Positions 14,391 through 63,535 of a DNA stretch of 64,000 nucleotides are shown here, one piece after another. Numbering within the stretch: position 1 is the stretch's first letter; the number at the start of each line of letters is the position of its first letter. Below the pieces are notes generated by a model. That model was not told where the DNA came from, did not search any database, and was given only the letters and a program-made list of their open reading frames with translations. Origin of the DNA: Heliocidaris erythrogramma (Eukaryota > Echinodermata > Echinoidea > Camarodonta > Echinometridae); NCBI GenBank assembly GCA_025617745.1, contig CM046870.1, forward strand, positions 11,776,330 through 11,840,329, in the 5' to 3' direction. A program made the translations under genes and the position numbers.

Positions 14391-28265
<13,875 letters not shown>

Positions 28266-28269
28266 AATA

Positions 28270-28545
28270 ATGATAACAAACCGTTATAGCGTATAGCGTA
28301 TATTTCATTATGATAACGTCCCTTTGCGCTTCCAAAGGGTTTGGATATTAATTATCCTGGTTTTAGCTCCGGCAGCCGTAATCAGCGCACAGTGCATTTC
28401 AAGGAATAAATCCTGCCAGGTACCCAGTTAACACCTGGGTGGAGAGTGGCAAATGTGGATCAATGTCTTGCCAAAAGACGATAGCACCGGACAGAGATTC
28501 GAACCCTCAACCCTTGGATTGAGAGCCAAGTGAATCAATCAATCT
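28270..28545 (-). mobile_element. tRNA-derived SINE
   Basis: On the minus strand: an A-box-like TGGCTCTCAATCCAAGGG, a B box GGGTTCGAATCTC, then a body with GGCAAGACATTGATCCACAT and CCACTCTCCACCCAGGTG, and a 3' end with repeated TATAGCGTATAGCG-type sequence. Related fragments lie at 5545-5890 and 6665-6860. Confidence 0.7.
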
Positions 28546-28549
28546 CATT

Positions 28550-29280
28550 TAACTTCAGTGCCAGAAATTAGTTCATTTAGCCGAAAAAGTCGTACTCCAT
28601 TTTGTACTTACGGGCCATATGATATTTTTTTTCTTCTGAACGATGTTAGACTATCTGTACATTTTAGACAAGTCCCTGTCTGTGTATTGATCAAAGACGA
28701 CGCACATTGATTGTATTCCTTCTTATTAGGCACTAGGACAATTATTCAGACTAGCAAACCAAAACAATTTTCTATCTAATTATTTTGTTATGATTATTCC
28801 CTGGCATCTCAAGTGTTGTAGGCTATGTACAGCCCAAGAGACCGACAGCTAGCTAGACTGAGCGCCAACGAGACCCACAGCTCATAGGCTGTCGATTAAT
28901 TTTCCAGTTTCGTGGATCCTGTGAACTATCAACCCCAGATTACAACCCAAATGATAATCATACCGGACAACTACACCCTCTCAAAACACCTGTACATCCC
29001 AGTAGCCCGACAGCCAAAGAGATGGACAACGTCGCTCTGGTGAACTCTCAGAAAAGTTGTTGGAACGCCCACGGGACACGACACTTCGGTCTCATGGGCC
29101 CTAGGTCACGTGGGCCTTCCGACAACTGTTTTTTGAAAGCACAAGAGCCCGACATGGTCGTTCTATTTGGTCATCGGTCTCGTGGGCAGTAGGCCTACTC
29201 TAGCTCCAAAATAAACCAATTTCCTGAACAGCAAGTACGTGGGAGATCACTTGATTAGGGTAGTTTTTGGGGTGGGTTTT
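28550..29280. other. No gene recognised
   Basis: Mixed-composition DNA. CCGACAGCT/GAGACCCACAGC-type short diverged repeats occur between 28830 and 29180. No splice-supported exon or protein motif was seen. Confidence 0.4.
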
Positions 29281-54833: not shown

Positions 54834-56461
54834 CCCCCCCCCGGAGCACGCTTCGCATTCTGACAACCGCTCCACAAAAATGAAATACTGGCTACGCGGT
54901 TGGATCCTTTAAGTCTGCCCCCCCCCCCCCCGTATTGAAAAATCCTGGCTATACCAGTGCTCTTGCTAAATATTGCGCCCCCAATATAGGATAGTGTATA
55001 AAGCAGCATTTGCAACGGTTATTAGCTTTGAATGAAATCTCAATTTCAGGTAGCCTTGCTGAATTTCTCGACTCTTTCTTAGATTGTAGACGTGGGTGAA
55101 TAGAAGATCGTTATCAATCTGTAAAATTCGAGCTTCTTCACCGCTTAATTGCGGTGGTCAATTGAAAAATTTGCGTTTTTTAGGGTAAAAAAAATGAAAA
55201 ATTTGCCGCTCGGTCGCTTTGCTCCCTTGTTCGTACAATAACCTAGATAGGTTTGGGCACTCGGGGGGGGGGGGCGTACTTCATTGTTTGCCCTAGCGCC
55301 ATAATCCCTAGATATGCCACTGCCCTGATAGCAGAAAGTGGTAATAATTACGTGATATTTACGTCGTGGATTCGTCTTTTTTACGTCCTGTAATTACGTC
55401 AATAAGACGACAATTTGCACCAACGCAAGACGTCAAGAGGACGTCTTATTTTGACGTCATCTGTAAACTGTAAAACCTGAAGTGCTGTATATAGCACTTT
55501 TTGAGGGCATGCATAGGGACTGCACTCAGAGTGCTATTGAATGGACACAGCGTGCTATTTCAGCACTTTCACGGGAGCTGGACCGGCTCCTTAAACTGCT
55601 AAACATTCATTAAAAAAAAATGATTGGGCAAGCTTCGAACCAGGGTCCGCTGATCGAGAATTGCTGGCATTACTAACTCACATTGTACGATTTAGAGCAG
55701 ATCATATTGTTACATAGCGAATTTACGACACCACATAGTTCATGTTATCTGATAATCTAAAGATCAGTGAAAAATTAATTGTATTGTTGTTATCACTATT
55801 TTTATTTCATTTTAAATACGTAAATTACAGTTTTTCAATATTTTTAGCTACAGATCTGCTTTAAATTATATTTTGTACACGTTTTGTAGAGACATCATTT
55901 TGAATGATAGCTATGAATGGTAACAGCCAATCACACACTATAGCGCAATTTCGTCACTTCCCGCATAACATGGCGGCGCCCATGTCCGTGCCAGATCGTG
56001 GCAAGTCCATGTTTTAAGATTGAATTTACTCAAATATGGTACATCAGATTTGTGACATGTTTGGATCATTCAAACAAGTACAATTTTAGTTTGTAAACGC
56101 TTGATTACAATGTTTTGACCTTCATTCTCCTTTAGTGTACAAGACGTAGAGATGACGTCAAAATAAGACGTCCTCTTGACGTCTTGCGTTGGTGCCAGTT
56201 GTCGTCTTATTGACGTAATTACAGGACGTAAAAAAGACGAAAACCGCGACGTAAATATCACGTCATTTTTAACACTTTCTTCTATCAGAGAAGAGGAATG
56301 AAGACGTAGAGATGACGTCAAAATAAGACGTCCTCTTGACGTCTTGCGTTGGTGCAAGTTGTCGTCTTATTGACGTAATTACAGGACGTAAAAAAGACGA
56401 AAACCACGACGTAAATATCACGTCATTTTTTAACACTTTCTGCTATCAGGGTGGCTTCGCT
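54093..56461. mobile_element. hAT-like element with 8-bp target duplication
   Basis: The ends are CAGTGGCGTATCTAGGG at 54101 and CCCTAGATATGCCAC at 55306-55320. GCTTCGCT flanks at 54093-54100 and 56454-56461. The right duplication is displaced because another element (55323-56451) inserted two bases from the hAT end. Contains poly-G/C hairpins and 190-bp repeats. Confidence 0.8.
55323..56451. mobile_element. CCCTGATAGCAG inverted-repeat element, copy A
   Basis: Starts CCCTGATAGCAGAAAGTG and ends with its inverse. The flanking TG at 55321-55322 and 56452-56453 is a 2-bp duplication, shown by the empty site at 8440-8450. The right terminal segment of about 175 bp is duplicated in tandem. Inside, on the minus strand, a tRNA-like B box (55629-55640) is followed by T9; the A-box region has a deletion compared with copy B. 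Confidence 0.85.
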
Positions 56462-56836: not shown

Positions 56837-56946
56837 GAATCGTTGGAGACTGGAAGAGTTACTTCTCAGAAGATCAGAACCGTCGATTTGATCAACTCTA
56901 CCAAGAAAAGATGGCAGGATCGGGACTCGAACTAAGATTCGAATAA
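56837..56946 (+). CDS. Sulfotransferase last exon
   Basis: Acceptor TCATCTAG|GA. IVGDWKSYFSEDQNRRFDQL to LELRFE then TAA. It completes the RKGxxGDWK PAPS-binding motif. A possible AATAAA lies about 200 bp downstream (about 57148). Confidence 0.8.
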
Positions 56947-57159
56947 TCCTTATTGCGAACATCGCTTTCATACCAATCGCTTTAACAGGTTAACTGGGGG
57001 AAGAACTCGAGTATCATTGCGGAGTGAAATCAAAATCTAACTATAGAATGGGGAAGAAATTGTATTGTAACACGGTGTATTTAGTAAGCAGTCAAGAGGC
57101 AATTATTGTAATATAAAAATGTTATCATTACATGTATTAAATCGAAAATAAATGAGTAA

Positions 57160-62150: not shown

Positions 62151-62642
62151 GGACAAAACTACCCCCAGGACACATTACCCCCACCCCCATAAAACGATCA
62201 TTTCCCCAACTACAACCCTGATAGCAGAAAGTGTTAAAAAATGACGTGATATTTACGTCGTGGTTTTTGTCTTTTTTACGTCCTGTAATTACGTCAAAAA
62301 GACGACAACTTGCACCAACGCAAGACGTCAAGAGGACGTCTTATTTTGACGTCATCTCTACGTCTTCATTCCTCTTCCCTGATAGCAGAAAGTGTTAAAA
62401 ATGACGTGATATTTACGTCGCGGTTTTCGTCTTTTTTACGTCCTGTAATTACGTCAATAAGACGACAACTTGCACCAACGCAAGACGTCAAGAGGACGTC
62501 TTATTTTGACGTCATCTCTACGTCTTGTACACTGTAAAAACTAAAGTGCTACTTTTAGGGGCATGTATAGTGACTGCACCTGAAATGCTGTTTATAGCAC
62601 TTGTAGTGTGCTTATTTACCAGCAAAAAAAAATGTGACCGTG

Positions 62643-62702
62643 GCGAGCCTCGAACCAGGTTCCGCTGATTGAGAGGCGCTGACGTTACCGATGGACTAAC
62701 GA
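62643..62702 (-). ncRNA. tRNA-like pol III unit, left arm of element B
   Basis: Minus strand: A-box-like TTAGTCCATCGGTAACG, B box GGTTCGAGGCTC (62645-62656), then T9 (62624-62632) about 12 nt on. The stems pair poorly, so it is not a functional tRNA; a SINE-like or regulatory pol III transcript is possible. Confidence 0.5.
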
Positions 62703-62810
62703 ATACTTCTTGCAATCCAGTTTAGTCATGGGAGTCAAGTAGATAACATGAACTATGTGGTGTCGTAAATTCACTATGTAACAATATGATCTGCTCTAAA
62801 TCGTACAATG

Positions 62811-62873
62811 TGAGTTAGTCTAGCGGTAATGCCAGCAATTCTCGATCAGCGGACCCTGGTTCGAAGCTCGCCC
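62811..62873 (+). ncRNA. tRNA-like pol III unit, right arm of element B
   Basis: Plus strand: A-box-like TTAGTCTAGCGGTAATGCC, B box GGTTCGAAGCT (62859-62869), followed by T8 (62880-62887). The T stem is imperfect (two mismatches), so a true tRNA is unlikely. Confidence 0.5.
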
Positions 62874-63535
62874 AAATCATTTTTTTTAATGAATGTTTAG
62901 CAGTTTAAGGAGCCGGTCCAGCTCTCTGAGTGCAGTCCCTATGCATGCCCTCAAAAAGTGCTATATACAGCACTTCAGTTTTTAAAGTGTACAGATGACG
63001 TCAAAATAAGACGTCCTCTTGACGTCTTGCGTTGGTGCAAGTTGTCGTCTTATTGACGTAATTACAGGACGTAAAAAAGACGAAAACCACGACGTAAATA
63101 TCACGTAATTTTTACCACTTTCTGCTATCAGGGAACTACCCCCTGGAAAACTACCACCCGGACAACTATCCCCCGGACAACTACCACCTGGACATGCACT
63201 ACTCACCTAAGACAATTACCCCAGAACAACTACCCCCGGAAAAGTACCCCCTGGACAACCACCACCAGGACAATTACCCCCAGGACAACTAGGCTACCCC
63301 CGAGGACAACTACCCCCCCCCCCCGGAAAATTACCCCCAGGACAAATGCCCCCCCCCCCCCACCTTCGGGGACAACTACCCCAGAATCAGGGGATAGTTG
63401 TCCTGGGGGTAATTGTCGTTGGGGGGGGGGGGGGGGGGTAGTTGTCCTAGGGCTAGTTGTCCAGGGGGTCATTATCCGGGGGTAGTTGTCCGGGGGTATA
63501 ATTGTCTCAGGGGTAGTTGGCCAGATACGAGATCT

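Follow-up and report, generated by a model that had tools for sequence, protein, structure and literature searches.

A 918-bp element in the Heliocidaris erythrogramma genome, here called element B, is probably one MITE lodged inside another. Its inner part is a palindromic core that inserts at TA. The surrounding outer MITE and the core have, on this reading, been amplified together as a composite, and the two tRNA-like units in the core arms travel as passenger promoters. Dozens of copies in the genome carry the composite, and the core is also found alone. Element B lies near the right end of the window, the 64 kb stretch of DNA analysed here (C18:11776330-11840329).

Anatomy of element B

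Element B extends from 62216 to 63133 of the window, and nearly all of its 918 bp form one inverted repeat. The dinucleotide AA at 62214-62215 on the left and at 63134-63135 on the right is the target duplication of the outer element. The 161-bp left TIR of the outer MITE is doubled: tandem copy 1, which begins with CCCTGATAG, occupies 62216-62376 and tandem copy 2, rich in ACGTC/GACGT, occupies 62377-62527, both on the plus strand. Because the left TIR occurs twice in tandem, the outer ends are set at 62216 and 63133. The right TIR, which ends in CTATCAGGG, lies at 62992-63133 on the minus strand. The initial annotation had described terminal inverted repeats with 2-bp duplications around the element, and both are present at these outer ends. 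Between the outer TIRs sits the core MITE, a 460 bp palindrome with CACTG...AAGTG ends (62530-62989), delimited with the help of solo copies flanked by TA on both sides. It adjoins the outer sequence at TA on the left (62528-62529) and at TA on the right (62990-62991). The right end of the core reads AAGTG in B and CAGTG in many other copies.

The right TIR of B agrees with its two left TIR copies at 142 and 143 of 150 positions, and with the right TIR of a second composite in the window, copy A, at 143 of 148. Judged by their sequences, the left and right outer TIRs are distinct subtypes. ACGTC/GACGT motifs occur 9-11 times per approximately 150 bp in the outer TIRs, against 0.98 per kb elsewhere, and are possible candidate sites for transposase binding. 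Element B sits in the edge of a minisatellite-like repeat (63134-63530), whose 15-bp ACTACCCCC/GGACA motifs form inverted halves and which also contains extended C and G runs.

The tRNA-like units

Each inner arm of B holds one A-box/B-box unit. The units lie on opposite strands within 62624-62887, point outwards and are closed by T runs, as the initial annotation had it. Box search and copy comparison place them as follows. Unit R, on the plus strand, has its A box TAGTCTAGCGG at 62816-62826, its B box GGTTCGAAGCT at 62858-62868 and a run of eight T at 62880-62887. Unit L, on the minus strand, has its A box TAGTCCATCGG, with one mismatch to the consensus, at 62688-62698, its B box GGTTCGAGGCT at 62646-62656 and a run of nine T at 62624-62632. 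The boxes are spaced 42 bp apart in both units, and the T runs follow 11 and 13 bp past the B box. The B box of both units departs from the consensus at the last base. Only two sites in the 64 kb combine an A box and a B box of at most one mismatch each with at least six T: units R and L. The same test yields 1 match in total over 60 shuffles of the window. For the 441-bp inner stretch a match appears in 1 of 4000 shuffles, and a chance origin of the boxes is rejected on that basis. Aligned with each other, the units match at 61 of 71 positions; being homologous, they count as one event, not two, in this reckoning.

No tRNA is found in the units by ARAGORN at default settings or by Rfam, and neither unit folds better as RNA than its shuffles do. 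A relaxed ARAGORN match (-ps80) that reads unit R as tRNA-Ser(cga) is background, being one of 31 such matches in the window; in the solo-core consensus the units give no tRNA down to -ps75. At E<=10 Rfam lists eight matches, the best of those listed being MIR8007 with 27.6 bits (gathering threshold 195), and all were set aside as palindrome noise. A genuine tRNA gene is rejected, since ARAGORN, Rfam and folding all fail to reveal a cloverleaf. As far as sequence can tell, the units are tRNA-like in their boxes and spacing only.

Several other repeats and coding remnants lie in the window. A SINE-like repeat on the minus strand (28200-28561) combines the B box GGTTCGAATCT with a body that contains CCACTCTCCACCCAGGTGTTAACTGGGTACCTGGC and with a simple A/T-rich end; CCACTCTCCACCCAGGTGTTAACTGGGTACCTGGC resembles what we take to be a known conserved SINE domain. 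The head of this repeat, at 28.5 kb, is the best relaxed ARAGORN match in the window and shows already at -ps90. The window further holds reverse-transcriptase ORFs, an amylase C-terminal domain and a Tc1-like transposase ORF of 218 aa (18250-18906), which is apparently shortened by a G run.

Copies in the genome

The assembly searched comprises 1,064,227,859 bases in 26 contigs. Searching with 62375-63135 yielded 134 candidates; 40 of these were scored, and 39 copies besides B were retrieved. Further searches found 22 and 5 more copies; sequence was retrieved for 22 of 23 further places, one in contig C15 being left out. Seven duplicates of retrieved copies (L003-L009) are excluded from the counts, and one copy (L064) was shifted by hand from core-only to composite since a TIR remnant is present. 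The total sample is 54 composites, A and B included, and 14 cores that lack the outer TIR.

A unit in another copy was scored as retained when it had an A box and a B box of at most one mismatch each and at least four T. In the first set of 41 copies, unit R passes in 36, unit L in 34 and both in 31. In the second set both units pass in 10 of 13 composites (L064 among them). Of the 14 solo cores, 12 pass for R, 6 for L and 6 for both. Over the whole of this similarity-chosen sample, 41 of the 54 composites and 6 of the 14 solo cores thus retain both units. At least four T follow on both sides in 41 of 41 copies, the left value for copy A coming from unrelated sequence. Most copies keep the unit order, the 42-bp spacing and the T runs. 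Conservation of boxes and T runs in other family members, the check proposed at the outset, is mostly borne out, in a sample biased by similarity. Copies were picked by their likeness to a unit-containing query, so the retained fraction is biased upward; for the same reason, and because copy A with no left unit stood outside the list of 40, unit loss is underestimated.

Copy A (55323-56451, minus strand), delimited by sequence comparison and flanked by CA on both sides, is a composite with a tandem left TIR. It keeps a B box and a run of nine T, as first annotated, and its A box has an 8-bp gap. The position of the left unit is taken by approximately 390 bp unlike the left arm of B. This left inner part (55751-56140) begins directly after the CACT end of the core. 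By segment, the right arms of A and B are 97-99% identical (72/73, 64/65, 99/101 and 140/144), whereas the inner arms of B match each other at 37/51, 61/71 and 68/85. The far closer likeness of the A and B right arms implies that the paired state predates these copies and that copy A lost its left unit by later replacement. Beside copy A, at 56905-56975 on the minus strand, a weak A-box/B-box pair is accompanied by TTTT and may be what is left of a tRNA-like sequence.

A probable MITE nested in a MITE

The core that carries the units is a palindromic MITE of approximately 460-500 bp with CACTG...CAGTG ends. Seven of the nine solo cores with both ends measure 460-536 bp, the other two 932 and 1057 bp. 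No ORF of at least 150 aa is present in the core. It is short and non-coding, with TIRs and a constant target duplication, as is typical of a MITE. All 9 solo cores with both ends found have TA on either side, in differing flanking DNA, and all 12 whose left end was found have TA there. Of 49 composites, 47 have TA at the left core junction, 44 at the right one and 42 at both; in 3 of the 49, CA stands in place of the right TA. Core right ends differ between solo copies, several of which have TTTTTAGAGTG, and composites, which have TTTTTACAGTG and TTTTTAAAGTG. The CA junctions and the differing right ends count against the nesting.

The outer duplications are sequence-unspecific, and the TA target of Tc1/mariner elements is found for the core only. 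A 2-bp outer duplication flanks 45 of 48 composites with both ends, or 43 of 46 after copies with shared flanks are merged. Six composites (L047, L048, L049, L059, L064 and L069) stand outside the 48, one or both of their outer ends being missing. Another (L070) is counted as a miss, its left flank perhaps being too short for a tandem end. The merged copies are L021, L038 and L071 (contigs C6 and C19), whose common flanks point to one insertion and later segmental duplication. In an earlier set of 45 composites the duplication is present in 43, with 13 different dinucleotides, and a 3-bp match at the outer flanks occurs in only 3. Like a MITE, the composite has TIRs and a duplication of constant length, here 2 bp. 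These features support the original view of a cut-and-paste type element rather than a plain SINE. The mode of movement first assigned to the element stands; that the unit-bearing palindrome is a separate MITE, nested in the element whose ends had been noted, had not been foreseen.

Outside the boxes, solo cores deviate from their own consensus in 124 of 3945 cells and composites in 366 of 22241. The greater divergence of solo cores fits an older core. Taken with the TA junctions and the existence of solo cores, it makes it most likely that a MITE with TA as its target inserted into another MITE, and that the latter then spread the two together. An empty outer MITE was not found in 201 kb of sequence, where three near-matches are core junctions. 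A search with the outer TIR alone, by a tool that skips very common words, returned nothing. The missing empty form counts against the nesting.

Alternatively, the whole 918-bp element could be one foldback transposon family, its solo cores being decayed copies that have shed the outer TIRs. Almost the entire element is indeed one inverted repeat, the left TIR is in tandem in 25 of 45 composites, and long TIRs with tandem repeats are a foldback feature; TIR copy number varies in Tetris and Galileo as well (PMC4079207, PMC3573991). Decay would leave ragged ends. Solo cores instead end sharply in CACTG and CAGTG, with TA on both sides in every copy with both ends and differing flanks, which makes a single foldback family highly improbable.

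Origin of the unit pair

Homology between the core arms reaches both sides of the units, at matching places. Arm against arm, the solo-core consensus agrees at 64 of 75 positions in the unit, with 1 gap column, at 73 of 90 in the outer arm, with 56 gap columns, and at 23 of 36 in the centre, with 41. Because this homology is not confined to the units, doubling of one unit together with its arm would account for both. The initial annotation had raised a SINE captured twice. That suggestion is disfavoured by the arm homology that flanks the units and by the failure to find a SINE body, tail or flanking duplications, for which reasons a single capture with inversion-duplication of the arm is simpler than a double one.

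There is a minor possibility that the units are captured SINE pieces, a tRNA-derived SINE head having entered the ancestral arm, or both arms separately. The A and B boxes of such a SINE promoter are present at tRNA-type spacing, and MER6 offers a precedent for a SINE-bearing MITE (PMC6887750). Aligned with the SINE-like head at 28.4-28.6 kb, unit L scores slightly better than shuffles, of which 20 of 500 reach its score; for unit R, 101 of 500 do. Several features speak against a SINE head. Around the units no body, 3' tail or variable-length duplications are found, with no flanking repeat of at least 6 bp in the compared stretches. The T run follows 11-13 bp past the B box, at the point where a tRNA gene ends rather than behind a SINE body. 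Separate entry into both arms is disfavoured by the homology that the arms show beyond the units.

Constraint on the boxes

Counts of constraint leave out copy A, as do the diversity counts of the 41-copy survey, and the solo-core consensus leaves out L051 and L066. Among 49 composites, 12 of 1561 cells at constrained box positions depart from the consensus; elsewhere 366 of 22241 do so. The difference has p 0.005 by Fisher's test, 0.05 by circular shift and 0.03 with random sets. The boxes of nine solo cores differ in 7 of 280 cells and the rest in 124 of 3945 (p 0.72). Ten of the 11 box variants in composites are private to single copies; such variants arose after insertion and say little on selection for mobility. 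The evidence that this variation gives for constraint on the boxes is marginal. Lower box variation, together with 1 inter-arm gap column in the unit against 97 outside, leans towards past constraint on the unit and against pure passengers.

These observations bear on whether the units might be working pol III genes. TFIIIC would then bind the boxes, each copy would give two outward RNAs of approximately 80 nt, and selection would keep the units for a benefit to the element, such as more open chromatin, or for a use by the host. The 42-bp spacing of the A and B boxes, at least four T in nearly all examined copies, the lower box variation of composites and the near absence of gaps in the unit favour such genes. 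Opposed to them are the solo-core boxes, which vary like the rest, the mostly private variants of composites and copy A, which moved or persists with a cut A box and without the left unit. The off-consensus last base of both B boxes, the A-box mismatch of unit L and the lack of an RNA fold count in the same direction. Working pol III genes are judged unlikely. The fuller proposal, that both core arms are active pol III genes of the tRNA type and that the family seeds paired divergent promoters, or TFIIIC sites, with RNAs of approximately 80 nt kept by selection, is quite unlikely.

Relation to known elements

MITEs of the Tc1/mariner type are short, palindromic and non-coding, insert at TA and depend on a DDE/D transposase with matching ends. 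The core shares the first four properties and is a putative member. tRNA-derived SINEs have A and B boxes at tRNA-like spacing, a body, a 3' tail and SINE-type duplications. The present units resemble them in boxes and spacing; they lack the body, tail and SINE-type duplications, and movement is by TIRs.

MER6/MER6A is a MITE that carries a V-SINE segment and was spread by DNA transposition (PMC6887750). The likeness lies in a short, non-coding TIR element with SINE-derived sequence. MER6 has a SINE body and tail, no tRNA-related head and 24-bp TIRs, whereas the element described here has a tRNA-like unit only, one per arm, and its carrier is nested in a second MITE. The Drosophila foldback elements Tetris and Galileo share long inverted repeats, tandem TIR doubling and variable TIR copy number (PMC4079207, PMC3573991). 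Tetris makes duplications of 8-10 bp (PMC4079207), unlike the 2 bp of the outer element, which departs from foldback elements in this respect. The accessible portions of the two texts do not mention tRNA-like units: for Tetris neither polymerase III nor tRNA is named, and for Galileo tRNA is named once, with reference to neighbouring genes. No MITE carrying tRNA-like units in both arms came up in searches of the openly licensed PMC literature, which is no proof of absence. Three exact patterns gave no match in viral_contigs, and a search of phages gave none; one pattern matched genome_contigs once, in a bacterial MAG, about as expected by chance for 18 bases.

Proposed history and significance

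The following sequence of events would account for the nested arrangement. (i) One arm with one unit was most likely duplicated in inverted orientation, giving a palindromic core with an outward-pointing pair. (ii) The core arms would then have drifted to approximately 80-85% identity. (iii) A copy of the core probably inserted at a central TA of another palindromic MITE, the one with CCCTGATAG ends and unspecific 2-bp duplications. (iv) The composite, including its form with the doubled left TIR, may have been spread by a putative transposase of the outer element. (v) The units would have been carried along as passenger promoters, which may fire weakly and are presumably not needed for movement.

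The finding is real and well delimited. Its mechanism, nested non-autonomous DNA transposons, is ordinary; its cargo is unusual. The events can be put in order from the solo copies, the junctions of the nested parts and the target duplications. Even if the boxes do not work, the family clearly illustrates how one MITE can be captured by another and the two amplified as one unit. If they do work, a DNA transposon would do what is usually ascribed to SINEs, namely scatter divergent pol III promoters or TFIIIC sites.
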